The notes under the pieces were generated by a model. The model did not search any database. It was not told where the DNA came from and saw only the letters and a list, made by a program, of their open reading frames with translations. Shown here one piece after another: positions 2,746 through 35,130 of a DNA stretch of 35,769 nucleotides. Position 1 is the stretch's first letter. Every line of letters begins with the position of its first letter. This DNA is from a virus. The DNA lies in the IMG/VR virus record IMGVR_UViG_3300008113_000615, positions 1 through 35,769 of that record, one strand, 5' to 3'. A program made the translations under genes and the position numbers.

Positions 2746-5277
2746 TTAGGCCTCCAGGACGAGGTAGTTGAGGGTGATCGCGGCGGAACCAGCGGTACCG
2801 TCGTTCTTGAACCGATAGCTGTAGACATCCGTGACCGGTGATTCCAAATTAGAAATCATCGGAGCTGGAGACAGCCTAATCGTATCTGTCCCGGTCGCTA
2901 TAGTTTCGACCAGAACACCCGAGCCCGGTGCTGGGTCTTCAGTACGGACTCGGGTGGCATCAGCCGTAGAGGCTGCCGCTCTGTTGTAGAGGCGAAACCA
3001 ACCGGCTTTTGTACTCTGCACAGAGAGCAACATGCCCGAGCGCGGTAGGTTTACCGTGCCCACGGTGTCGCCCTCGTTGGCAATGTTGATAGTGCCTCCC
3101 ATGGAAGGGTGGAATTCACATTGGTAATAGAGAGTGTCAGGTGCGCTCTGTGGCACAACAAACGTAATGGTGCCAACGTCTGTACCGTTATTAGTGACAC
3201 CAGTGGTGTACATATCGCCCTGCCCCGTTGAGCGCGTCGTTTTGATGCGGAACGGGTGGCCAAGGGCGTTGACATTCAGTGTGTAGGTCCGGCCTCGGAA
3301 CAGTGTCAGCGTTGGGTTTGTGTCACCACCAATCAGGTAGGACGACGTGCTGTTGTGGGTTACCGCCATCGTGGCTGGCGAGCCGTCGCTGGTGCTAAAT
3401 GTGACGGTGGAGCGGAAGATGGCGGAACCGCCTCCTCCACCTCCACCGGCGATCACCATGTCACCGCTGCCGATCAACGTTTGACCGTTGATCGTCTTGA
3501 AGTTGACGCTTCCGGAGCCCAGGACGTTTGCCTGACCGGTGCCACTCACCAGCGTTTTGATGTTTTCGCCGTTGATCAGCGCCGTCTGGAACTTGTTGTC
3601 GACGTATGTCTTGACAGCGTTCTGCGTGGGAACCGTGTTGCCATCGGCCGTGCCGCTGAAGCCGGAGAGCAGCGTGGTGTTGTTACTGACTTCTTGGAGC
3701 TGCTCTCCATAGAAGATGCCGTTCCGCTTGAACGGGCCAATGGCGTTGAGACCAGCGAGGTTGAACTGGCCTGTTGTGATTGTGACGTCGCCTGAGGCAC
3801 CATCTACGTCGAAGCCTTTGCCCACCCGCAGATTGCCAAGGTGGTCGAAGCTGATGAAGAAGACTCGTCCTCGGTTGGTTTCGACAATCTCGTTAGCCGG
3901 GATTGGGATACCGCCGTTCTCGGGGAGCGCCGAGTAGTTGGTACCGGCGCCCACGTACTCCATGTTGTGGCCGCCGGTCGAGATTTGCGAGCGGCGTACA
4001 AACTCGACCGTTGTGCCGTTGGGAACGGCGCCGGTCAAGGATGGATAGAAGTTGACGCGGTATCCGCTGTTGCCATCGGTCAGCGCCACGGAGCCCGTGA
4101 CGGTGTAGAAGCTGGTACCGATGCGTAGGAGTAGACCCGGCAATGGACGGGCCGTCGAGCCAATGCGAGGTGCGCTTAGGTTGACAACGTTGATGAAGCT
4201 AGTGGTCGCACCCTGTACTGTGCCGGTAAAGATTGGCGACGGGCTGAAGCCATCGGCCACCAGCGAGTACGTGCCAAAGTTGGAGGTCGAGGATGAGATC
4301 GACGCTTGGCCACCGGTTTCGCACTTGACGTGGTACTCGCAGAAGGTTGAGAAGAACGAAACCAACTGGGCGAAGCCATCGTTCTTGATGAGGCAGCCGG
4401 GACCCCCCAGGTTGATCTGGGTGAAGGAGTCCACCACCATCGAGCGCAGTGGTGAGTTGCCTGCGCAGGCGCTGCCGTCGATCAGCAAGCCACCGCCAGT
4501 GACGCCGGTGGAAGTCGAGCCACCTTGGCCATCGTTTTGGCGAGCGGTCAGGCTCGTGCAGTTTTGGATGTACGGCGAACGAGTGATGTAAGCGCCAAGG
4601 GCGTTGGCTCCAATGGGGACATTGTTAGCGGCAGTATTAAAGCGAACCACCCAGGATGTCTTATAGACCCCGTTGTGCGTGCCTTGCTGATGGCCGGTGA
4701 ATGTGCAGCCGTAGCAGTAGAAGCCGGAATCGACCTCGAAGATGCCGTCGTACTTGGTGGCTTCCGTTGGGCGGATCGTGACTTGACGAAGGGCGTCACC
4801 GAAGATGCCGACATTACGGCGCACCTGCATCGGGCAGGTCTCGGTGTACTCGCCCGCGCCCAGCATGATTGCGGTGCCCGGCTGCGCTAGCTCAATTGCT
4901 TTGCGGAGCGTTAGCAGAGGTTCGGCAGGGCTCGAGCCATTGTTGGTGTCGGAGCCGTCTTTATCGACGTAAAGGCGCTTCGCGTAGCGGAGAGCGTCCT
5001 TAAAGGCTTCGTGCTTGTCGTTGACTTCCTTCAGCGCTTTTGCTGTGGGTGCAACGAGCTCGCTGGTTGAATCCAGCGCGTTGGTGAGCTGTACGGCGCC
5101 TGCCGCGCTAGTGGACGCTTTCCCGCCCACACGCCTGATGGCGCCAGCGGAGTCTTTGAGGTAAAGAGCCGGGTCACCGGCGTTGTAGTTGACGGCGAGC
5201 TCTTGGAGCTCGAGATCTGTGGGCAGAGGCGCATTACCTAGGACGCCACTCCCCTTATGGATGATTTCTGCTGACAT
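2746..5277 (-). CDS. Tail fibre: beta-helix plus cupredoxin-like domain
   Basis: This 843-aa protein is counted from the ATG at 5277. A TTG at 5316 would add 13 basic residues and is rejected. Residues 1-100 hold a fibre attachment region ('LQELAVNYNAGDPALYLKD'). Residues about 103-370 start with 'LYVDKDGSDTNNGSS' and 'PLLTLRKAIELAQPGTAI', the opening of pectin-lyase-like beta helices, and continue with stretches I know from cyanophage fibres. A linker with 'TINGQTLIGSGDMVIA' and eight glycines follows. Residues about 620-735 look like a cupredoxin fold: 'GHPFRIKT' with His674, and 'YYQCEFHPSM' with Cys720, His723 and Met726. The C-terminal 110 residues form another beta domain. It should act at the tail tip in host attachment. 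No Shine-Dalgarno is evident before 5277. Confidence 0.88.
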   Translation of the reverse strand: MSAEIIHKGSGVLGNAPLPTDLELQELAVNYNAGDPALYLKDSAGAIRRVGGKASTSAAGAVQLTNALDSTSELVAPTAKALKEVNDKHEAFKDALRYAKRLYVDKDGSDTNNGSSPAEPLLTLRKAIELAQPGTAIMLGAGEYTETCPMQVRRNVGIFGDALRQVTIRPTEATKYDGIFEVDSGFYCYGCTFTGHQQGTHNGVYKTSWVVRFNTAANNVPIGANALGAYITRSPYIQNCTSLTARQNDGQGGSTSTGVTGGGLLIDGSACAGNSPLRSMVVDSFTQINLGGPGCLIKNDGFAQLVSFFSTFCEYHVKCETGGQASISSSTSNFGTYSLVADGFSPSPIFTGTVQGATTSFINVVNLSAPRIGSTARPLPGLLLRIGTSFYTVTGSVALTDGNSGYRVNFYPSLTGAVPNGTTVEFVRRSQISTGGHNMEYVGAGTNYSALPENGGIPIPANEIVETNRGRVFFISFDHLGNLRVGKGFDVDGASGDVTITTGQFNLAGLNAIGPFKRNGIFYGEQLQEVSNNTTLLSGFSGTADGNTVPTQNAVKTYVDNKFQTALINGENIKTLVSGTGQANVLGSGSVNFKTINGQTLIGSGDMVIAGGGGGGGSAIFRSTVTFSTSDGSPATMAVTHNSTSSYLIGGDTNPTLTLFRGRTYTLNVNALGHPFRIKTTRSTGQGDMYTTGVTNNGTDVGTITFVVPQSAPDTLYYQCEFHPSMGGTINIANEGDTVGTVNLPRSGMLLSVQSTKAGWFRLYNRAAASTADATRVRTEDPAPGSGVLVETIATGTDTIRLSPAPMISNLESPVTDVYSYRFKNDGTAGSAAITLNYLVLEA

Positions 5278-5346
5278 AAGGCGCCGCTTGCGAACGCGCC
5301 CTCTCGGGCTGTGCAAAGCGTAGCGCCTGAGTGATGTTGAGGAATG

Positions 5347-25261: not shown

Positions 25262-25554
25262 GCGAACGACGGGGCGAAGCCTTCGGCCCAGATCGAATCG
25301 CGCTTCAGGCGGGGTTGGTCACCGTGGCCGTTGCGGGCGCGATTGGTAGAAGGATCCTCGAGGACGGTTTTTCCGGCCTCGGTATGAGAGACGTCCGGGC
25401 CCCCTTTGCCAGCGATGCCACGCTTGCGTCGCTCGCGGTTCAGCTCAGCGCGGCGCTTGCGCTCCGAGGGGCGACGGTTGATCTCGGCCTGGGCGCGTTG
25501 GCGCTTGGCCCGGGCCTCGGGGTTGGAGCGGTAGAAGGCGGCGGTGGAGGTCAC
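25258..25554 (-). CDS. Basic helical protein with C-terminal RDSIWAEGF tag
   Basis: This 98-aa protein starts MTSTAAFYRSNPEARAKRQR and continues with 'RRPSERKRRAELNRERRKRG', a long basic helix likely to bind DNA or RNA. A glycine-rich loop and 'DVSHTEAGKTVLEDP' follow. I recall small cyanophage proteins with this 'YRSNPEARAK' opening. The end is K-R-D-S-I-W-A-E-G-F plus five residues, the same tag found at the ends of two other head-region proteins here. That shared tag, next to the protease gene, suggests it is packaged in the head. It overlaps neighbours on both sides by four bases. Confidence 0.75.
   Translation of the reverse strand: MTSTAAFYRSNPEARAKRQRAQAEINRRPSERKRRAELNRERRKRGIAGKGGPDVSHTEAGKTVLEDPSTNRARNGHGDQPRLKRDSIWAEGFAPSFA
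25276..25302 (-). repeat. R-D-S-I-W-A-E-G-F tag, copy 1
   Basis: This 27-base segment encodes the RDSIWAEGF peptide near the C-terminus of the 98-aa basic protein. Its core GCCTTCGGCCCAGATCGAAT differs from copy 2 at only a few bases. Confidence 0.8.
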
Positions 25555-26624
25555 GAGCGACGAGAGGTCTTACCAGAGCACTTCCACTTCGCTCTGGAGA
25601 GGCAAAGCGGCGTGTTGCGGTCGGGGCCGGAACAATCCTTGCCGTGAGACTTCATGTCACCGAAGCTCCGGGCGCAGTAGTTGTCGCCTTTGTCTGTGCC
25701 GGGGGCGATGGTGTAACCCTTAGCTCCGTAGCGGACCTTGTTCTTGCGACCGGTTTCGGGGTTGGTGACCACCTTGGTGTATTTCTTGCCGTCCTCGGTG
25801 TCAGCCTGCGCGCGCTTCTTGGTGGGAACGCAGTTGGGCACACGGCGCTTGCCCTTGCGCTTCATGCCCACTTGCTCGTAGCCCTCCCAGCAGGCGTCAC
25901 GGCGAGTGGGCGGTTGGAGTTGCGTAGGGGCGTAGTGCTGGATGTAGTTGTCGGTCCGGCCGAAGCCCTGAGCTCGACGACGGCGTGGTTGGCCGGTGCG
26001 GGGATCAAGGGGTATGGCTTCACGTGTTCTGGGCGCAGTGCTCTGAGGTAGTTGCGCTTGGACGCCCTCGGGAAGGCGCTTCTGGTCAGGCCGTCGGTAG
26101 CCGGGCTCGTACTTCCGGCGGGCAGCTTCGACGCGGAGGCGGAGGTTACGCGCGGTGAGCTTGGTGGCCATACCGGTGGCTTCACCAGCGGCGGCCATGG
26201 TGTTGCCGATTTGAGCGACGCGGCGGATCTCCTCACGGGCTGTTTGAGCGATACGACCCTCTGCGTTCTTCACCGCCGCAGCGGTGTTTTCACGCATGCG
26301 CTGGGTTTTGGACTTGCGCGCAGGTGCCGCAGCGAGAAGAGCGCGTGGTGTCAGGCCGGGAAGACGAGGTTGCGTGGGGGATGGGCCAGAGCCGGGTAGG
26401 CGTGGCAGGCCAGACGGAGTGGGGGCAGCCCCCGCGCTCGTGGAACCCCGGCGGGACATTGCGTAGGCCCCCGCACCGAGTGCGGCGACACCGAGACCTG
26501 CGGCGATGGCCTTGCGGGTGGGGAAGGAGCCTTTCTGCCGGCAGGTCTTATCAGCGGCAATGTGGCTCTGACCGCAGGGTCGGCCTTTGGCGTCAAGGCG
26601 GAGCGTGGCGGGGGTGATGGTCAT
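25551..26624 (-). CDS. Modular head-region protein with CGxxxI module and Cys-rich tail
   Basis: This 357-aa protein starts MTITPATLRLDAKGRPCG. The first 30 residues hold the module C-G-Q-S-H-I-A-A-D-K-T-C (exact C-x10-C), followed by a Gly/Ala-rich hydrophobic segment ('AAGLGVAALGAGAYAMS'). Residues about 60-235 are Arg/Pro-rich and disordered-looking with a helical stretch. The C-terminal 110 residues carry two Cys-rich blocks: 'CWEGYEQVGMKRKGKRRVPN' then Cys, and 'RYGAKGYTIAPGTDKGDNYC' with 'DRNTPLCLSRAKWKC'. I recall these end blocks from cyanophage and marine phage proteins. The N-terminal 'TPATLR-DA' is shared with the next gene. It is probably an internal or head-associated protein; no enzyme activity is evident. 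Confidence 0.8.
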   Translation of the reverse strand: MTITPATLRLDAKGRPCGQSHIAADKTCRQKGSFPTRKAIAAGLGVAALGAGAYAMSRRGSTSAGAAPTPSGLPRLPGSGPSPTQPRLPGLTPRALLAAAPARKSKTQRMRENTAAAVKNAEGRIAQTAREEIRRVAQIGNTMAAAGEATGMATKLTARNLRLRVEAARRKYEPGYRRPDQKRLPEGVQAQLPQSTAPRTREAIPLDPRTGQPRRRRAQGFGRTDNYIQHYAPTQLQPPTRRDACWEGYEQVGMKRKGKRRVPNCVPTKKRAQADTEDGKKYTKVVTNPETGRKNKVRYGAKGYTIAPGTDKGDNYCARSFGDMKSHGKDCSGPDRNTPLCLSRAKWKCSGKTSRRS

Positions 26625-27115
26625 ACGACAAAGCCCTCGGCCCAGATCGAGTCGCGTCGTTTCGCCGGTCGGTGATGCTGGGCTTTGAATGCGGCCTCGC
26701 GTCCTTTGTTGTACAGGTTCTTGATGTCCGAGGCGTAGCCCTTTCCAAGGGTGCTCAAATTGCGACCCATCCCTCGGCCTGTCGCCGCGACATTCGCGGC
26801 ATTCTTTGCGGCGCCTACCCAGTTACCTTGAGCTACGTTCCCAATGCCGAATCCGGTTTGAAGCGTCGGTTCGACGATTTCGCGCGCGGCTTTACGCATT
26901 TCCAACCTCGGGTGGAGGAAGGCTGTTCCGACAATCGCGGCGCCGGTTAGAGCGGCGGCTCCGGCGGCGAGTTTGACGGGCTTGTTCCATGAGGCGCGGC
27001 ACTTGTGATCCTTGGGAATACAAGCGTTTCCACATGCCTTGGAACTAGGGCCACAGTTGAGCTTCTTGTTGCCGATGAAGGCATCTGTGCGCAGCGTGGC
27101 AGGAGTTAGCGCCAT
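26621..27115 (-). CDS. Head-region protein with CGxxxI module and RDSIWAEGF end
   Basis: This 164-aa protein starts MALTPATLRTDAFIGNKKLN. A CGP-type cysteine is followed by the module C-G-N-A-C-I-P-K-D-H-K-C, then a hydrophobic segment ('LAAGAAALTGAAIVGTAFL', residues about 48-66). The rest is a helical, basic, Asn/Ala-rich domain ending R-R-D-S-I-W-A-E-G-F-V-V. It has the full set of head-block features: shared N-terminus with the previous entry, Cys module, membrane-type segment and C-terminal tag. A role as internal head or ejected protein is inferred. It overlaps the next gene by four bases. Confidence 0.8.
   Translation of the reverse strand: MALTPATLRTDAFIGNKKLNCGPSSKACGNACIPKDHKCRASWNKPVKLAAGAAALTGAAIVGTAFLHPRLEMRKAAREIVEPTLQTGFGIGNVAQGNWVGAAKNAANVAATGRGMGRNLSTLGKGYASDIKNLYNKGREAAFKAQHHRPAKRRDSIWAEGFVV
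26630..26656 (-). repeat. R-D-S-I-W-A-E-G-F tag, copy 2
   Basis: This segment encodes RDSIWAEGF two residues before the stop of the 164-aa protein. It includes one of the strand-biased GCCCTCGG octamers (26633-26640). Confidence 0.8.
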
Positions 27116-27118
27116 GGT

Positions 27119-28528
27119 TCAGATCGCGAGTTGATCGAGCTCGGGGGTAAAGCCTTCGGCGTAGACGGAGTCGCGACGACCAAGGAGAGGACGGTCGTAT
27201 GGACTGGAGGCCCAACCGGTTCCGCTGGGAGTTGAGCGCATCCCAGAAGTACGCATGCGCGTGGATTGATAGGCCCCACGAGCGCGGCGCTTCATGCCGG
27301 CAACACCACCGGTCCGACTAAATCCGGCGTAAGCACCGAGGGCGGCTTCTTGTCCAACCCCGACGGCAGCATTACGGGCAGCGCTCTTGAGGAATTCCTT
27401 AGAGAGCTCGGATTTACCCATGCGGCCCGCTTTGCTCGCATTAGCTACCTGAGTGGCAGCGGCACCGAGGGTCATGTTGCGGTAACCACGGCTCACTTCA
27501 CCGAGGTTGCCACGTGCAGCGCCTTCCATTGTCTGAAGTAGCCCAGCTCCAATAGCTGCGCCACCACCTAGGCGAGCAGCAAGTTCACCAGTTGCTTTTA
27601 TCTTATTACCGATACCTTTTGTAGAAGCTTTGGTTTTATTGAAACGGTGTGCGGCCATCGGGTCGTTCATAAGAGTCTTGAATTCTTTCTTAGCTGCAGC
27701 TTTCGGGTCGACCCTCTGCGCTGTTCCGACACGGCAGGTTTCGCCCTCAGAGATGGAGCCTTTGCCGCATTTGAGATCACCGCGCTCCTCCATCGGATCA
27801 AAACCATCAGCCCAGACTGAGTCGTAAAGGCCACGCTGTCTGCGCCGCGCGTTGTACGAGTGTTTCCGTACTGCATTAACGCCGCCACCAATGGCACCAC
27901 CGAGGACTGCCCCTGATGCAGCGTTCCCGAGACCGCCGAGCGCGGCTCCTTGCACAACTCCTTTTAGCCCTTGGCCACTCATGGAACCTAATGTGGCACC
28001 CATAGCAGCACCAGAAATACCGTTGATTAAGGCTCCATATTTGGCACCTGTAGCAATGCCTCGACGGACTGAAGGACGTTTAGAAGCACTTTGTGCTTTC
28101 TGCGCTGTTCCGACATGGCATTTTTCGCCCTCAGAAATGGAGCCTTTGCCACATTTGAGGTCGAGGCGCTCAGCGGCATCGAGCCGGGCTCGGATGTAGG
28201 AGCGGCTGCGGCCCTGAATGCCGAGCTCGCAAGCGACGAGGTACTCCTGAGGGGTCAGGGCGTCGTTGCGGTCCATCTTCTTGCCGCAGCTGCCGTCGCA
28301 CTTGGCTTTGCGCTTACCACAGTTGCAGCCTTCGCCGTCCATCGGCTTTTTGCCGTACATGCCTCCATCCATGGGGGCTTTGGTCTCCTTGGCCCCCTTC
28401 GCGGAGCGCTTGCGGCTGGTTTTGCCCTTGGCAAAAGGCATCTCCTTGTCGTCCTCGCCTTCGCGGATTTCGTCGGGGCCAGCCTCCATCTCCATCGGTG
28501 GGCGCTTTTTGGAGGAGGAGGCAGGCAT
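27119..28528 (-). CDS. Modular head-region protein with two CGxxxI modules
   Basis: This 469-aa protein begins with a charged Lys/Glu-rich region and a Cys cluster ('GCNCGKRKAKCDGSCGKK', residues about 67-84). 'ALTPQEYLVACELGIQGRSR' leads to R-L-D-A and the first module C-G-K-G-S-I-S-E-G-E-K-C, then a Gly/Ala-rich hydrophobic domain of about 70 residues with many small-residue (GxxxG) patterns. A Y-D-S-V-W-A-D-G-F tag closes this part. A second module C-G-K-G-S-I-S-E-G-E-T-C and a second Gly/Ala helical domain follow, ending with R-R-D-S-V-Y-A-E-G-F. The internal duplication is visible in the DNA (see repeats). It looks like two fused cargo or membrane-active head proteins. No Shine-Dalgarno is clear. 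Confidence 0.82.
   Translation of the reverse strand: MPASSSKKRPPMEMEAGPDEIREGEDDKEMPFAKGKTSRKRSAKGAKETKAPMDGGMYGKKPMDGEGCNCGKRKAKCDGSCGKKMDRNDALTPQEYLVACELGIQGRSRSYIRARLDAAERLDLKCGKGSISEGEKCHVGTAQKAQSASKRPSVRRGIATGAKYGALINGISGAAMGATLGSMSGQGLKGVVQGAALGGLGNAASGAVLGGAIGGGVNAVRKHSYNARRRQRGLYDSVWADGFDPMEERGDLKCGKGSISEGETCRVGTAQRVDPKAAAKKEFKTLMNDPMAAHRFNKTKASTKGIGNKIKATGELAARLGGGAAIGAGLLQTMEGAARGNLGEVSRGYRNMTLGAAATQVANASKAGRMGKSELSKEFLKSAARNAAVGVGQEAALGAYAGFSRTGGVAGMKRRARGAYQSTRMRTSGMRSTPSGTGWASSPYDRPLLGRRDSVYAEGFTPELDQLAI
27149..27175 (-). repeat. R-D-S-V-Y-A-E-G-F tag, copy 3
   Basis: This segment encodes the RDSVYAEGF peptide ten residues before the C-terminus of the 469-aa protein. Confidence 0.8.
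27715..27778 (-). repeat. Direct repeat of CGxxxI module, downstream copy
   Basis: This 64-base copy encodes the second C-G-K-G-S-I module of the 469-aa protein. It matches the copy at 28099-28162 at 58 of 64 positions by eye, 384 bases apart and in the same frame. Confidence 0.85.
27800..27826 (-). repeat. Y-D-S-V-W-A-D-G-F tag, copy 4 (internal)
   Basis: This internal version of the tag lies at the junction between the two halves of the 469-aa protein, where a separate protein of this set would end. Confidence 0.75.
28099..28162 (-). repeat. Direct repeat of CGxxxI module, upstream copy
   Basis: This copy encodes the first C-G-K-G-S-I module of the 469-aa protein. It differs from the copy at 27715-27778 at six positions, so the duplication is recent or under exchange. 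Confidence 0.85.
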
Positions 28529-28566
28529 GACTACAAGGCGAAGCGCCTACAAGCGATGCGCTCAGG

Positions 28567-29448
28567 TTATCGCTGTTGTGATACAGGAGTCGGGGCGAAT
28601 TGCTCAAAAACCGCTGCGCGATTAAGGGAAACGCCTTCGGTGCGAAGGCGCTTTACGGCTGTCTCGACTTCCCGTTGGTGGCGCTGGCGCGAAGCGGCGT
28701 AATCAGGATCCATGTTGGCAATTTCGGCATCCCATGGTGCTAGATAGCAGCGACATCTAGGGTGCAAAGGAACACGGATATCTTGTCTGCGATAGATGTT
28801 GCCCGCCCTCGGAGCGCAAATGGGGCACGAGCGGTCGTCTGCAGTGGCGTAGTACATCACGAGTTCGACGCCCTGAGCTGCGTAGTACGTATTAGAGGCG
28901 TCGTTGTAGGCACGAAGCGATTCGGTGCGGATAATCGCTTCAGCCCGGGACTTCACAACGCCTAGACGAGAACGCATGTCGCGGATCATGGCGTCAGTGG
29001 GGCGACCTTCGGCAATGCCCTGGGCGACGACCTCGGCTGAGGTGGTAGCGAAGCGCTCACCATGCTTGCGAAGGTAGCCCTTGGCTTGGGCGGCAGCAGC
29101 GACGGTCGCTTCGAGAGGAATCGACACGTCGACTCGAGGGCCGGGCTTCACCTGACCGGTCAGTTCGTCGGCGACGGATACGCCATAGCGAGACGACGTA
29201 CCGGCAAGATTGCGCAGGATGCGATCGTATGAGTCGACTCGATCCGGGTTGAAGACAGGGATGAGCTGCCGAAACTCTTGGAGTAGAGACAAGTTGCGCT
29301 GTGCGGGGTCAGCCTTCCCAAGGCGCATGTGAACACGGGCGCGCCGAATCAGACGATTGAAGCTGGCGTCTAGAACCCGATTCAGAAGACGAACAGTGTC
29401 GTCCTCGGTGGTGCGGAGTAGCAGGTTGTAGCGCTCAACTAGATCCAC
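28567..29448 (-). CDS. Head morphogenesis protein (Mu F / SPP1 gp7-like)
   Basis: This 293-aa protein starts with GTG 29448 and overlaps the end of the preceding gene by 14 bases. It has the family's C-terminal signature: 'RAEAIIRTESLRAYNDAS', then 'YYATADDRSCPICAPRAG' and 'PLHPRCRCYLAPW', with Cys and His placed as a metal-binding site. The N-terminal half is helical ('LLNRVLDASFNRLIRRARVH'). Proteins of this family are minor head components near the portal and are needed for DNA-containing head assembly. Its place just after the portal and the modular protein fits. Composition is ordinary for the head block. Confidence 0.9.
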   Translation of the reverse strand: MDLVERYNLLLRTTEDDTVRLLNRVLDASFNRLIRRARVHMRLGKADPAQRNLSLLQEFRQLIPVFNPDRVDSYDRILRNLAGTSSRYGVSVADELTGQVKPGPRVDVSIPLEATVAAAAQAKGYLRKHGERFATTSAEVVAQGIAEGRPTDAMIRDMRSRLGVVKSRAEAIIRTESLRAYNDASNTYYAAQGVELVMYYATADDRSCPICAPRAGNIYRRQDIRVPLHPRCRCYLAPWDAEIANMDPDYAASRQRHQREVETAVKRLRTEGVSLNRAAVFEQFAPTPVSQQR

Positions 29449-32400
29449 GGCTCATTTCGCTGAGAGATCTTTGAATGAGCAGATAGTCAGCTATCACTTG
29501 AGCTTTAAGGGCTGGGCCGTAGGGCTTGATGCGAGACCAAAGCTCATCGGGGCTGATCAGCCCGTTGGATTCACCGGTCGCGTCGAGACGGGAGTTCTGG
29601 AAATACTGGGCGTATTGCTTAGCGAGCTCCTTGCCCGCCGGAGAACTGAATTCACGTTGACCTTCGAGGAATGTGATGAACTCGCGGGCGGTGTAGTTGC
29701 GCCCTCGGGCTTTGCCTTGATAGATAGCTTCGCGAGCTTCACGGCGTTGTCCACGGGAAACACCCACGTCCACGACGACACGGGTAGCTCTACGAAAGCG
29801 CTGGAGTTGCTCAGACTCAGGAACCCCGTAGGCGATGCCATTGGCGAGGGCTTCGCAGTTGTCCTTGGTCAGGGAGAACTTGTAGTCAGTGTTGGCAATA
29901 CGGATAGCCCGGCGGACGACGTCTTCATTGGAGAATGAGCCACCGGACTGCTTGAACTTAGGGTCAGGTGCCTTGACTAGGGGAGTCATCAAAGCTTGGG
30001 AGGTTCTAATACCGGGTTTTGTAGCGCCGATCTCTGCAACATCAGTCCAGCTGAAGCGGGACTTGTTGGTATTGGCGATGACGGCACGCACAACGCCGTC
30101 TTTTCCCTCGCCAAGGTAGATTCCAAAGTGGGCTGCGGGATCTTTCTCATGGCGAAAGTAGACCACATCACCGGGTTTTAACCCGGATTTCTTGGTGTAG
30201 TAGTACCCCATAGCTTCACTAGTATTTTTAGTGCCGGCTTCTTGCTTCATAGCCTTGACAAGATCCTTGATATTTGGGCTCGGATCAAGTGGTGACTTGG
30301 TCGGATCGCGGAGTGTTTTGAGGTTGTAGGCAACGCTGCCGGCCGTACCGATAGCCAAAGCACCTCCAACAACGGCAGCAGCAAGGGCTGCCTTGCGTTT
30401 GATATCCGTGCTTGGGGAAGCCGTTGCAGCTGCTCCTTGTCCCTTGGTACAAGCGTGCTTTTTGGGGATGTGGGAGGCGCCACAAGGCTTACCTGCGGCG
30501 TCTACTCGGTCATTTCGGATGAGATCGGCTATTTGTTCTATATGAGAGTCCTGCATCCGGGTAAAACTACCCCCGCGCTTCATCGCGAATAGGCGCTCAT
30601 CAGACGACAATACCGAGCGGAATCCGTATTTTTCGTATATAGAGCGACGCTTTTTGCCTTTGTCATCATTAGAGTACGGAATAGCGTATATAATAGAGTT
30701 ATCGGGTAATTGGTCTATCTGTTCCTGGAACATTTTTTTAACAGTGGAAGCTACACCCCGTGCATTGCGGGATGCCGATGCCGACTTTGCATCAAATTCC
30801 CCGTCTACTCGGAACTGGGTTGAATACGTCCGTGCGCCGCCAATGCTCTGTTGTGGCTTTGTTGAATAGATCAGGAGGGTCTCACCTACGGAGCCTGTAC
30901 TGAGCAAAGTCCCATCTTTCATCTTCCAGTTTGTAAAGTTGTCTTTGGTGTTAACTGATACAACTTCACCTCCTTTTGACTTTAGAGCTATGTAGGCGGT
31001 ACTTTTCTTAGCGTCTCCTATTAGTCCACGCGCAGCTTGTTGGAACTGTTTAGGTAACCGGCTAAGGCCCGCATCCACTTCAGTACGCGATAGATTCTTG
31101 ATAACACGCTTGCTAATTTCTGGTACTACTGTCTCCCTATTTTTGTAAGCGAGTGCTCCTACTGCAGTTAATGCAGTACCTACACCGATGGCGGCCGCAA
31201 TGGCCATTCGATTGCGGATCTTCTTATCGCCCTCGGGGGGAGATGCCTTGGTCGGAGCGCCTTGGCCTTTCCGGCATTCATGCGCCTTCGGGATGTGCGA
31301 GGCGCCGCAGGGCTTTCCCAGGCGCTTGCCCTCCTGAAAGTCGGCGCGGGCAGCGAGGTAGGTGGCAGTGCGGACGAGCTCGGGGCGCGAGTCGCCTCGT
31401 TGCTCTATCTCACGCTTAGCGGCACGATAAGCAGCTTCCAGGCTCATGCCTTCGTTGCCTGCACGAGCTCGGATCTCACGAGCTAGCGAAGAGAGTGCGG
31501 CCTGACGTCGAAGGCCGCTGCGGGGCACACGCCCGGTTGAGGTCGAAGTAGGCACTCCTGCGGTTGAAGCTGTCCGAACCCGCGTGACACCTGAGAAGCC
31601 GTGCTCGCTTTGGAGAACTCGGAATGCTTCGGTGGGTTGAGTGATTGGACGCCCAGCGAGTTCCGAAGCCGCGTTCAGAGCCACACGATCTGTGATCGCG
31701 AAGGTAGGGCGTCTGTTTTTGTCGGAGCCGGCAAGAAGATTGGCGAAATAGGCAGAACGCACGAGTTCGGAATGTGCCTCCCCTGCGATCTGACTACGAG
31801 GGAGCCCCAGTCCTCTGGCCATTTCACCAACCCGCACTCGGTCGAGAGAGGCCAGCAGGGTCTGGGTGCCCTCCCGTAGGGAAGGGGCTATTTTGCGCTC
31901 GGTACTAAGAGAAGCGACTCCAGGTATGCTTGTAACTTTACTACCAACTTCATCGTATAGCTTACTAAAGCCATAAAGCGACTCCGTATATATCTCAGAG
32001 GCGCGTCCAGACAGTGACTTGCCACTCATTAAGTTAACGACATGACTATCAGCGCTATCCCTTAGGGTTTTGGAGACGGTACCTGATCCTGTAATACCTG
32101 CGTTGTTGTTGAGCTTCCCCAAGTATGTGTTGATGGCATCAGGGTGAATAACTTCTTCTTTGTTTACCTTCGCTGTCTTAAGTCCTAGCTGTTTCGCGTA
32201 AGCAACATGCATTTCGCGCTCTTCTATGAGTTTATTTGCAAGTGCATCTTTGATTGATGTCGCACTTGCGTTGCTGCCTCCCTTTTCAATTGGTAAATTG
32301 TAGTGCTTAATAAGAAAGTCTTCGGAAGCTGGGCGAGCAAACACACTGATTTCTGCTTTTGTCACTTTCCCACTTGTCAGTTTTGTGACATAAGAATCGA

Positions 32401-33244
32401 GATCGGGAGCACGTTTTTTGGCCGTCCAGAAGGCTTGTTGATGCTGCTCGTTCCATGCGTATACATTTGTTGAACCTGAAGCGCGAGCTGCTTTATTTAC
32501 AGCGTTTGTTGCGTGACTAAGATTGCTTTCGCCTGAGCGATCTGTATCGCTGACGCCTAAGTTTTGAAGATGACGCAGGGTCTCTGGCGAATTGCTATCA
32601 AGTCCTCCGATTAAACCGTCCGGTCCCGCCTGAGGCACACGGGCGGAACGAGTGACGGCCTCGGTGATCGAACTGAAGGCGCCTACGCGGGTACGAGCTC
32701 GTTGAGCTCCTAGCAGTGGAGTGGCATCAAGGACACGGCTGACACCAGTGTGTACAGACTCATTGATCTGTTTACCTAGTCCGTTTCGATAGCCGAATGT
32801 ATCTTTGTTCATCAGCAGGGCATGAATGCCCAGGCCACCGGTTATTACGGCAAGGCCCATGCCAATGGCTGCGGTGCGATTCTCGAGCTTCTTCTTCAGC
32901 TCTGCTTTTTGCTGAATGTTGCCCGGGGTGATTTTGACGGCACCACGAATGATCGCAGCCTTACCGCCTTCGACGTCGGAGAAGCTGCCTTTTACAATTC
33001 CTTTTCCGATACGGCCAAAGCCCCGTTGGATGTTGGCAAGACCACCTAGAGGGTCAGTTTTGACCGCTCTCAGGTGGGGATCAGTGCCTTGGCCTTTAAG
33101 ACGGCAATCCCAAGTCGGGGGTATGCAACGATTCCCACAACGAATGTTGGGAGGATTGCATTGGACATTACGGCTCGTCTTACGTACATCAAGACGCTCC
33201 CGAGCTGCTAGATAAGCCGCTGTCCGAATGGTGGTGTTATCCAT
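29435..33244 (-). CDS. 1269-aa modular head protein: three CGxxxI modules, GNAT-like and LRAT-like domains
   Basis: Start ATG 33244 overlaps the portal stop (TGATG); 33259 is rejected. Three units are visible. Unit 1: 'TTIRTAAYLAARERLD', module Cys36-Cys47, a hydrophobic helix near 135-155, and a helical domain to about 620. Unit 2: 'RTATYLAAR' again near 625, module Cys646-Cys657, hydrophobic helix near 680-700, and a domain with 'ARGVASTVKKMF' (Arg829) and 'RRSIYEKYGFR' (Tyr870), like GNAT motifs A and B. Unit 3: R-V-D-A near 915, module Cys921-Cys932, hydrophobic helix near 945-970, and an LRAT / permuted NlpC-P60-like domain: 'LKPGDVVYFRHEKD', 'HFGIYLGEG' (His1039) and 'DNCEALANGIAYGVPESEQ' (Cys1130). 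It is placed like an internal head or ejection protein. Confidence 0.83.
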   Translation of the reverse strand: MDNTTIRTAAYLAARERLDVRKTSRNVQCNPPNIRCGNRCIPPTWDCRLKGQGTDPHLRAVKTDPLGGLANIQRGFGRIGKGIVKGSFSDVEGGKAAIIRGAVKITPGNIQQKAELKKKLENRTAAIGMGLAVITGGLGIHALLMNKDTFGYRNGLGKQINESVHTGVSRVLDATPLLGAQRARTRVGAFSSITEAVTRSARVPQAGPDGLIGGLDSNSPETLRHLQNLGVSDTDRSGESNLSHATNAVNKAARASGSTNVYAWNEQHQQAFWTAKKRAPDLDSYVTKLTSGKVTKAEISVFARPASEDFLIKHYNLPIEKGGSNASATSIKDALANKLIEEREMHVAYAKQLGLKTAKVNKEEVIHPDAINTYLGKLNNNAGITGSGTVSKTLRDSADSHVVNLMSGKSLSGRASEIYTESLYGFSKLYDEVGSKVTSIPGVASLSTERKIAPSLREGTQTLLASLDRVRVGEMARGLGLPRSQIAGEAHSELVRSAYFANLLAGSDKNRRPTFAITDRVALNAASELAGRPITQPTEAFRVLQSEHGFSGVTRVRTASTAGVPTSTSTGRVPRSGLRRQAALSSLAREIRARAGNEGMSLEAAYRAAKREIEQRGDSRPELVRTATYLAARADFQEGKRLGKPCGASHIPKAHECRKGQGAPTKASPPEGDKKIRNRMAIAAAIGVGTALTAVGALAYKNRETVVPEISKRVIKNLSRTEVDAGLSRLPKQFQQAARGLIGDAKKSTAYIALKSKGGEVVSVNTKDNFTNWKMKDGTLLSTGSVGETLLIYSTKPQQSIGGARTYSTQFRVDGEFDAKSASASRNARGVASTVKKMFQEQIDQLPDNSIIYAIPYSNDDKGKKRRSIYEKYGFRSVLSSDERLFAMKRGGSFTRMQDSHIEQIADLIRNDRVDAAGKPCGASHIPKKHACTKGQGAAATASPSTDIKRKAALAAAVVGGALAIGTAGSVAYNLKTLRDPTKSPLDPSPNIKDLVKAMKQEAGTKNTSEAMGYYYTKKSGLKPGDVVYFRHEKDPAAHFGIYLGEGKDGVVRAVIANTNKSRFSWTDVAEIGATKPGIRTSQALMTPLVKAPDPKFKQSGGSFSNEDVVRRAIRIANTDYKFSLTKDNCEALANGIAYGVPESEQLQRFRRATRVVVDVGVSRGQRREAREAIYQGKARGRNYTAREFITFLEGQREFSSPAGKELAKQYAQYFQNSRLDATGESNGLISPDELWSRIKPYGPALKAQVIADYLLIQRSLSEMSRGSS

Positions 33245-35130
33245 CAGTACTGCTCCCAACCAGCGCGAAGGGCTTCAGCTTCGCCCTCGGATACAGGGGA
33301 CAGCCCAGCTACATTCTGCCGTGGGTAGAAAGCGCTGATCGCTCGTTTAGCGCTGTGCAGTGTGCGGAAGCCAATGGCATATGGCCCCTCGATCAGTTGG
33401 CCTTGGTGGTCGAACCGTGCTCGGTACAGCTTGCGTCCGTGAGCACGTTGTGGACCTACGACAAATAAAGCAGCGTTATCGGCTGCGTCAACGCGCTGGC
33501 CGTCAGGTGCTACTAAGTAGCCGATACTTACGCTGTCCTTACGATGCGTTTCTTTGATGTGATAACCGTGAGCGTGGATGATCTCTACAGAGTCTGTTTT
33601 CGCGGTCTTATCTGGTTGCGGTTCTTCAGTGCTCTCTTCTTCCTGCTCCTCTTCCTCTGGCTGCGCTCCCTCGGCCTCGGGCGGATTGGTCATCGCTTCG
33701 GCCTGGGCTTGGTATCCCATCATTTGGCTTTGGAACGAAGCGTCAGCTTGAGCAATGAGCTGCTCGGTGACGGCTCCGTTCAGAGTCGTTTCGATGCTGT
33801 ACTCGGTGCCGCCGAAGCGGGCTTCGCGCACCTCGAGAGCGTTCAGCACACCGAGGTTGAGGTACTGAGCGTCGACCTGCGCGATTTGGAGGCGTAAGGC
33901 CGCCTTTTCGCTGTCTGTCTCGGTGAAGATGCTCGGGAACTCAACGCTCCACTTCTGAGGGGGCCGCCCTCGGGTTGGTCCTTCGCGCGAGGCAAGGATG
34001 TAGGTGAAGACTTCGGTCACCGCCGTGCGGCAGTAGAGCTCTTGCCACTGCTCGACGAGGGTTGCCCAGACGCGCTCCTCGAAGCGCCCCTCTTTGCCCA
34101 GGCCACCGGGGGAGTCGCCCATCAGGATCGAGGCGGGCCAACCGGTGGCAGCCTGCAGATCCTTGATGAAGGGGTCGGTCGCTGAGGCGATGTTGCTGAG
34201 TGCGCGGTTGAGGAAGCTCAGTTCCTCTTCGGTGTCCACCACCATCCCGCCATAGACCGAGCGGCTGAGGTTGTTGGCCTCGAGGCGCTTGCGCAGATCG
34301 CTCTCGTTTCCGGAAGCAATGCGGTTGAAAAGACCGGGGATCTTGTGGACGAACAGGTCCGAGTCAGTCGTCATTGACTCGAGGCCCGACAGCGCGGTTT
34401 CGTAGCGCTTGTACGCCTCCCAGACGAGTTGGAGCACCGGCAGGCCCCACCCTGTGTTGCGCACTCGGACGTTCCAGGGCAGGTAAAGCCCGTCGAAGCG
34501 CGCTACGCGGGATGAGTGTATGCGCACATTGACATACTGCCCTTGCTGCTCGGGCGTGAGTCGCTGCGCGGTGGTGATCCGGTAGTGCGAGGGCTTGGTG
34601 TAGTCCGTGATCGAGAAGTCTTCCGGAATCAGCTCCCAGCGGGAGAGGGGGACATAGCCCCGGACAGCGCGTATCCGCGCAGGGTCGACAGGCTCCTCCG
34701 GAGGGAGGCCGTCATCGATCAGGAGCACCAGGCCAGCACCGCCGTAGAGGCGCTGAAGCTTGACGACCTCGGCAAAGGCGTGGTGGAACTGTGTGGCTTT
34801 GAGGTACTCCTCGAAGTCGGCGATCAGGTCGTTGGCGTTGCTCTGTTCGTCACCGCCAAGCTTGATCGTGGTTCGGTGGCGCAGGATCTCGTCAGAGATG
34901 GCATCGACGTAGCGCCTGGGGATGCCATGGGCGTAGAGGGCTTCGAGTTCGCCCTCGCTGAGGATTGCTTTAGCGCCTACAGAAGTAGCAACCGTTTTGT
35001 CCTTGGTTGTTAAACCCATGCCAGACAATACGTTTACTAACGCACCATCCTTCCGGAAATTATCAGCATTCGTGTCCACGGTCGCCGCAGGGCTGATTGA
35101 TATGCGAAGATTATCGCTGAACCTCGACAC
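33244..35130 (-). CDS. Portal protein (DUF1073-like) with C-terminal extension
   Basis: This 628-aa protein has the DUF1073 portal pattern: 'AKAILSEGELEALYAHGIPR', 'RYVDAISDEILRHRTTI', 'QRLYGGAGLVLLIDDG', 'YVPLSRWELIPEDFS', 'HSSRVARFDGLYLPW', and 'WPASILMGDSPGGLGKEGRF'. It forms the dodecameric gate for DNA. After residue 470 the chain becomes acidic, and then a 130-residue extension carries K-T-D-S (513), R-K-D-S (532) and R-V-D-A (548), similar to boundary peptides in the neighbouring modular proteins, plus a small beta domain ('KLYRARFDHQGQLIEGPYAI'). The start is GTG 35130; no Shine-Dalgarno is visible, so the exact start is uncertain. Confidence 0.9.
   Translation of the reverse strand: MSRFSDNLRISISPAATVDTNADNFRKDGALVNVLSGMGLTTKDKTVATSVGAKAILSEGELEALYAHGIPRRYVDAISDEILRHRTTIKLGGDEQSNANDLIADFEEYLKATQFHHAFAEVVKLQRLYGGAGLVLLIDDGLPPEEPVDPARIRAVRGYVPLSRWELIPEDFSITDYTKPSHYRITTAQRLTPEQQGQYVNVRIHSSRVARFDGLYLPWNVRVRNTGWGLPVLQLVWEAYKRYETALSGLESMTTDSDLFVHKIPGLFNRIASGNESDLRKRLEANNLSRSVYGGMVVDTEEELSFLNRALSNIASATDPFIKDLQAATGWPASILMGDSPGGLGKEGRFEERVWATLVEQWQELYCRTAVTEVFTYILASREGPTRGRPPQKWSVEFPSIFTETDSEKAALRLQIAQVDAQYLNLGVLNALEVREARFGGTEYSIETTLNGAVTEQLIAQADASFQSQMMGYQAQAEAMTNPPEAEGAQPEEEEQEEESTEEPQPDKTAKTDSVEIIHAHGYHIKETHRKDSVSIGYLVAPDGQRVDAADNAALFVVGPQRAHGRKLYRARFDHQGQLIEGPYAIGFRTLHSAKRAISAFYPRQNVAGLSPVSEGEAEALRAGWEQY

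Follow-up and report, generated by a model that had tools for sequence, protein, structure and literature searches.

Can the tail fiber of a phage carry a copper site? The question is raised by a fiber gene at positions 2746-5277 (minus strand) of the IMG/VR virus record IMGVR_UViG_3300008113_000615, whose 35,769 bases are referred to as the window. Known cupredoxins are free electron carriers or enzyme domains, and the original prediction, made from the sequence alone, had recognized a cupredoxin-like domain with a full set of type-1 copper ligands inside this fiber, an observation that was confirmed as it had been stated. Its interpretation was supported in part, namely for the domain, the ligand set, the occurrence in other cyanophage structural proteins, and the conservation of the four residues, while the suggested stabilization of the fold or the sensing or binding of metal at the cell surface would be a matter of conjecture. 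The gene encodes 843 amino acids from the ATG at 5277, from which all residues are numbered here, and its earlier designation as a tail fiber agrees with matches to PHROG tail families and phrog_677 and with a Phage_fiber_2 repeat. On balance, residues 618-738 are read as a cupredoxin module whose type-1 site would be filled with copper after lysis, locking the ligand loop, and which would serve the fiber in adhesion or as a spacer.

Putative copper ligands and predicted fold

The four putative ligands lie exactly where they had been placed, at His674, Cys720, His723, and Met726, with the motif GHPF beginning at residue 673 and YYQCEFHPSM at residue 717. The pattern CxxHxxM occurs once in the fiber. 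Among 20,000 shuffles of the fiber residues, it appeared in 24, and in 10 when a His located 20-70 residues upstream was also required. The remark that the spacing between His and Met is shorter than in plastocyanin was also right, and this spacing equals the C-x2-H-x2-M of amicyanin as printed in the profile alignments.

Structure prediction had been proposed as a check, and an AlphaFold2 model of residues 618-738 was built from alignment A3, which holds 24 of the 26 sequences available, all of them from the window or related loci. The model reached a mean predicted local distance difference test (pLDDT) of 91.1 and a predicted template modeling score (pTM) of 0.84, with nine strands. A His near an earlier strand and a Cys/His/Met loop before the last strand make up the cupredoxin arrangement. 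In the DSSP assignment, His57 of the model precedes strand 59-62 by two residues, strand 98-103 terminates with Cys103, and the loop that leads into the last strand (110-116) contains His106 and Met109. The predicted order is His, Cys, His, Met, with the first His assigned to the earlier strand and the others to the loop before the last one, as expected for the ligands of such a site. Residues 618-738 are thus predicted with high confidence to form a cupredoxin beta-sandwich of Greek-key topology, and predicted fold, fold and profile matches, and ligand counts concur in favor of a cupredoxin-like domain with a complete putative type-1 ligand set.

Foldseek placed rusticyanin at the top of its PDB matches (E 1.2e-6, TM-score 0.61 by query length), followed by AcoP, nitrite reductase, and multicopper oxidases. 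By VIA, all 50 matches listed were copper proteins; rusticyanin 1rcy was aligned with a Z of 11.2 and a root-mean-square deviation of 2.2 over 102 residues, and nine rusticyanin rows ranged from Z 10.3 to 12.2. Rusticyanin of Acidithiobacillus ferrooxidans (1rcy), the nearest solved fold, shares the order H..C..H..M, and its G-H-S-F-D-I, the His of which we take to be a copper ligand, resembles G-H-P-F-R-I of the window. However, identity amounts to 24%, the rusticyanin loop is longer (C-x4-H-x4-M compared to C-x2-H-x2-M), and rusticyanin is a free electron carrier and not part of a virion. The VIA alignment ends at residue 116 of the model and 155 of 1rcy, and the two loop lengths would explain the four-residue offset back to Cys between them, an argument based on aligned ranges and the 1rcy ligand numbers rather than on residue pairs.

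When compared to predicted viral proteins (BFVD), the best named fold matches were cyanophage fibers, gp9, and some S8-peptidase proteins. In Pithovirus and Marseillevirus records, small "beta-sandwich proteins" (A0A481Z6J5, A0A481Z7Q7, and A0A481YVH3) also resemble the model over nearly its full length, with E between 2.5e-8 and 2.6e-7.

Conservation and concerted absence of the ligands

Conservation of the four residues, another check that had been proposed, was assessed with a profile of alignment A1, which consists of 22 of 63 phmmer rows hand-picked for the ligand motif, with the S-B43 copy excluded, so that its invariant columns are partly a matter of choice. Over 178 loci it yielded 212 rows, or 166 distinct ones after the removal of 46 duplicates, and H-C-H-M was present in 135 of the distinct rows. 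By source, these were 1/1 from the window, 27/28 from INPHARED, 36/40 from GTDB, 67/72 from an IMG/VR scan based on a closer subset (A2), and 4/25 from a separate IMG/VR search. A2 was used since A1 was too divergent for scanning collections; its GTDB and IMG/VR scan patterns held no Cys, second His, or Met, while one pattern held the first His. The distance of 46 between His and Cys in the window is also the most common one (85 of the 133 rows that the pattern captured). In a set of 136 rows selected for C-x2-H-x2-M, the first His was found in all 135 with a letter at that position.

The 31 rows without H-C-H-M were read by hand, and 21 of them form a ligandless family. The loop ligands are missing in all 21, and the first-His column is occupied by Tyr (12), Phe, Asn, and Lys (2 each), and Ser, Val, and His (1 each). 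In the S-B43 copy (L059), which reads F-A-V-M, His, Cys, and His are absent together, while L103 and L105 keep the first His with Ser/Thr/Leu in place of Cys/His/Met. Two rows of L074 are halves of one domain and jointly hold all four ligands, the row of L104 is truncated where the locus ends, and two other rows in L103 and L105 are not this domain. Among copies that can be read to their end, the Cys or the second His never occurs unless the other three ligands are there as well. Residues that belong to one site are expected to be present or missing together, and of the indirect signs that the four residues may work as a unit, this concerted pattern is the strongest.

In the rows of the bacterial loci L079 and L098, which complete the 31, the reading frame is broken within the domain by a stop codon or frame change, with Cys/His/Met readable beyond it, which would reflect either a pseudogene or an assembly error. 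The ligandless family is homologous to the domain by profile comparison (hhalign E 3.4e-24), and its AlphaFold2 model reached a pLDDT of only 58.2. Its members include phage proteins (L008-L041) of about 1,580 amino acids when complete, with the homologous domain near residues 155-255; phrog_10938 covers the C-terminal half of L015, the single one tested.

Comparison with copper protein families

The A1 profile retrieved copper nitrite reductase from the PDB at E 3.8e-4, followed by plastocyanin, amicyanin, rusticyanin, auracyanin, and pseudoazurin, and 40 of its 51 matches at E up to 10 were copper proteins by name, including all of the best 37. With A3, copper proteins accounted for 30 of 35 matches and for all of the best 27. 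Alignment A4, a subset of seven sequences, matched amicyanin best (E 2e-5); 101 sequences reached E 1, the best 60 of which were all copper proteins by name. In the A1 and A4 profile alignments, the loop Y-x-C-x2-H-x2-M-x-G aligns column for column with the amicyanin loop. The first His is in register with amicyanin 2gb2 and fern plastocyanin 1kdi.

The domain of the window matches phrog_677 at E 3.5e-25 over model residues 19-116, as do all 24 members of A3. Copper-bind (PF00127) matches 5/22 relatives in A1 and 6/24 in A3. Out of ten A3 relatives scored singly, three matched it and one, the bacterial relative from L094, exceeded the cut-off with 28.5 compared to 21.2 bits, whereas the window domain has no match to it at E up to 1. 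The NCBIfam amicyanin model (TIGR02657) is touched by 8 of the 22 A1 members, the member shown scoring 22 bits against a cut-off of 110.2, and the window domain has no NCBIfam match. Rusticyanin (TIGR03095) has no matches in the window. A link to Knickkopf/Skeletor plastocyanin-like domains may exist; matches to PF25489 (At5g54830) alone are relevant to it, and these were below cut-off where scores were printed.

An orthologous fiber without the domain

The record G002, with a portal 80% identical to that of the window, carries an orthologous fiber of 765 amino acids (L243), with an identity of 74% in residues 1-603 and of 49% in the C-terminal domain. The Gly-rich linker and the C-terminal domain are present in L243, while the cupredoxin core is absent. 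Because this fiber is cleanly without it, the cupredoxin-like domain behaves as a removable module. L243 itself represents either a natural deletion or the state before insertion. The records behind 15 of the 64 portal relatives, which may be fragments, were searched with the A3 profile, and the domain was found in none of these 15; the same profile finds the window copy at 1.4e-49. The fiber was matched in three of the 15 records, and only the match in G002 extends past the first 61 residues.

Distribution in phages and bacteria

The statement that this domain occurs in other cyanophage fibers was borne out, although the domain is confined neither to fibers nor to phages. By tblastn at E up to 1e-3, it was detected in 334 of 50,697 INPHARED records, of which 327 bear cyanophage names. 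By name, the 334 records comprise 262 Synechococcus, 46 Cyanophage, 19 Prochlorococcus, and 7 other entries, many of them near-identical isolates or duplicates. In 8 of 20 INPHARED stretches, which were hand-picked for diversity, the domain ends a gp9-type baseplate connector. Tail fibers, podovirus structural proteins, a "subtilisin-like" protein, and the fiber of Pelagibacter phage HTVC028P are its other hosts there.

Among the GTDB loci, 29 of 37 motif rows place the domain at the C-terminal end of the reading frame, and 25 of the 37 loci are Bacteroidota by title. Some frames of the bacterial relatives (L062-L098) measure about 145 amino acids and hold little beyond an anchor and this domain. 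More than one domain-profile row per frame was found in 21 reading frames. Two or three such rows occur in frames of 1,503-1,957 codons in L148 (three rows), L113, L144, L139, L142, and L152.

Proposed metal site and alternative explanations

The explanation favored here builds on what was shown for the sequence, its predicted fold, and its conservation, on ligands that occur or are missing in concert, and on the ortholog that cleanly lacks the domain. A sandwich of cupredoxin fold would be inserted as a module between the fiber body and the C-terminal domain, and His674 would form a type-1 copper site of amicyanin-like spacing together with Cys720, His723, and Met726 of the short loop. Beyond this point we infer copper as the metal, its loading after lysis, its stabilizing effect, and a role in adhesion or as a spacer. 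As the fiber, judged by eye, has no signal sequence, it would fold in the cytosol of the host, which is scarce in free copper; for this reason, the domain would most likely leave the cell as an apo-protein and take up copper after lysis. The copper ion would then pin the short loop to the sandwich and stiffen the domain, which may be exposed on the fiber and act there in adhesion or as a spacer.

Several observations weigh against this explanation. As a single sequence, the window domain retrieves no cupredoxin from the PDB, and no cupredoxin family of Pfam or NCBIfam matches it. The remaining 11 of the 51 PDB matches of A1 are penicillin acylases and glycoside hydrolases, and 5 of the 35 matches of A3 are other proteins as well. 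In amicyanin 1sfd and plastocyanin 2plt, the first His is paired two residues before the ligand His, apparently drawn there by a Pro-Pro match. Since the rows of A1 and A3 were picked for the ligand motif, profile and model lean toward relatives that bear the ligands, and the A2-based IMG/VR scan was represented by the best 80 of 454 loci, which favors close relatives. The first His persists without the others in L103, L105, and the ligandless row L014. Finally, should the ligandless family retain the fold, the metal would not be needed for folding.

The alternative that survives best, though it is held to be unlikely, accepts the cupredoxin fold and proposes that the site contains another metal (e.g., Zn) or is empty in virions, the residues being kept for loop packing or for a role in bacteria. 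Folding in the cytosol would indeed hinder copper loading, and P675, Y718, and G728, found in 97-98.5% of motif-bearing rows, are conserved nearly at the level of the ligands, which points to a structural constraint on the loop. However, Cys and Met would be unusual residues to retain for packing alone, no copy that can be read to its end has one of Cys and second His without the other, and type-1 copper sites have this very ligand set.

A redox or copper-trafficking device that exchanges electrons or copper with proteins of the host surface appears improbable. Type-1 sites in known cupredoxins do exchange electrons or copper, many bacterial relatives resemble surface lipoproteins in that their N-termini look by eye like lipoprotein signals, and two of the 24 A3 members weakly match the cyanophage PetE plastocyanin family phrog_515 (best 1.5e-4), to which the window domain itself has no match. 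This is countered by the location of the domain inside large structural proteins, with more than one copy of the profile row in the 21 frames mentioned above, and by the two genes scanned beside the fiber, which match no known family above cut-off in Pfam or PHROG; a fiber would also make a poor diffusible carrier. A role in electron transfer inside the fiber is likewise considered less likely.

An accidental resemblance, in which an Ig-like or carbohydrate-binding sandwich bears the ligand residues by chance, is highly improbable given the fold matches, the three PDB profile searches, the ligand counts, the concerted absence, the relative above the Copper-bind cut-off, and the rarity of the pattern among shuffles (10 of 20,000), even though some relatives match Ig-like, carbohydrate-binding module, and other sandwich families of Pfam, below cut-off where scores were printed.

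Organization of the fiber gene and its surroundings

A program-made list of open reading frames (ORFs) offers an alternative start for the fiber gene, a TTG at 5316, which lies 13 codons upstream and would give 856 amino acids. The ATG is preferred because the ortholog L243 has a stop codon between the position equivalent to the TTG and the ATG. PHROG tail families match the fiber at several places in residues 77-563, and the match to phrog_677 spans residues 560-734. Residues 97-510 have matches in cyanophages, among them S-RIP2 and P-SSM2, and, judged by eye, may form a pectate-lyase-like beta-helix. The features of the gene are listed in Table 1.

Table 1. Features of the tail-fiber gene, given in window positions with residues counted from the ATG
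Feature	Position	Strand	Basis
Tail-fiber gene, ATG start, 843 amino acids	2746..5277	-	PHROG tail families; upstream stop in L243
Phage_fiber_2 repeat, residues 55-88	5014..5115	-	Pfam PF03406, E 7.6e-10, 38.7 bits vs cut-off 22
Fiber body, residues 97-510 (body region to ~563)	3748..4989	-	phrog_29288, E 4.2e-62 (function unknown); PHROG tail families
Linker of eight glycines, residues 610-617, preceding the cupredoxin-like domain	3427..3450	-	Sequence
Cupredoxin-like domain, residues 618-736 (modeled 618-738)	3070..3426	-	AlphaFold2 model; fold and profile matches
His674 codon, putative N-terminal type-1 copper ligand	3256..3258	-	Sequence, conservation
Cys720 codon, putative thiolate ligand	3118..3120	-	Sequence, conservation
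His723 codon, putative C-terminal His ligand	3109..3111	-	Sequence, conservation
Met726 codon, putative axial ligand	3100..3102	-	Sequence, conservation
C-terminal fiber domain, residues 739-842	2752..3063	-	phrog_9627, E 1.1e-20; phrog_15343; in L243 at 49% identity

Among the named phages listed, the one nearest to the portal of the window is Synechococcus phage S-CBS4, with 39.6% identity over 70%, and a cyanobacterial host is therefore likely. Elsewhere, at 25551-33259 on the minus strand, several neighboring ORFs share short Cys motifs of a single style (CGNRCIPPTWDC, CGASHIPKxHxC, and CGKGSISEGEKC), often ahead of a hydrophobic stretch rich in Gly and Ala. These motifs may represent a module that recurs in minor head or ejection proteins.

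Relation to known systems and implications

With amicyanin (1aac and 1sfd), which was the best match of A4, the window domain shares an identical loop length of C-x2-H-x2-M, while the relative shown remains far below the NCBIfam cut-off. It resembles plastocyanin, including cyanophage PetE, in fold and ligand order and differs from it in the longer His-Met spacing of plastocyanin. Furthermore, the 107 positions of the phrog_515 family describe small proteins that stand alone, whereas the window domain is part of a structural protein. The same domain family is found in phrog_677, the baseplate wedge tail fiber connector or cyanomyovirus gp9; there the domain ends gp9 of T4-like phages, while in the window it is internal to the fiber.

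A metal site in a phage tail fiber, which remains putative for the window, has a counterpart in T4 gp37, whose HxH iron sites are proposed to matter for adsorption under the "Ferrojan" or "Trojan horse" idea (PMC11705849). As described there, iron in gp37 is held by paired His, whereas the window would have a single-chain cupredoxin-like site. In the structure of P-SCSP1u, the distal fiber is reported as not resolved (PMC10575957). Charge-transfer absorption bands of S(Cys)-Cu lie near 450 and 600 nm (PMC4059628). In the PMC literature searched, judged by listings, titles, and the beginnings of abstracts, no account of a phage tail cupredoxin was found, by which its absence in print is not established.

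Here, the predicted cupredoxin fold and its ligand set appear as a building block of virion fibers and baseplate connectors, in a form of which no Pfam family accepts the window copy. If the site does bind copper, the virions of cyanophages would be copper-binding particles, and metal might influence their adsorption. Syn19, S-ShM2, and P-SSM2 are cultured phages that bear the domain, and the ligandless copies together with the ortholog without the domain provide natural controls. It is even conceivable, though quite improbable, that the fibers and gp9 of marine phages scavenge copper once the cell has lysed and offer it at the cell surface, where a host need for copper or a copper-dependent surface contact would aid adsorption. 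Should this be true, it would be the copper counterpart of the iron "Ferrojan horse", it would concern hundreds of cyanophage records, and virions would count among the copper-binding ligands in sea water.

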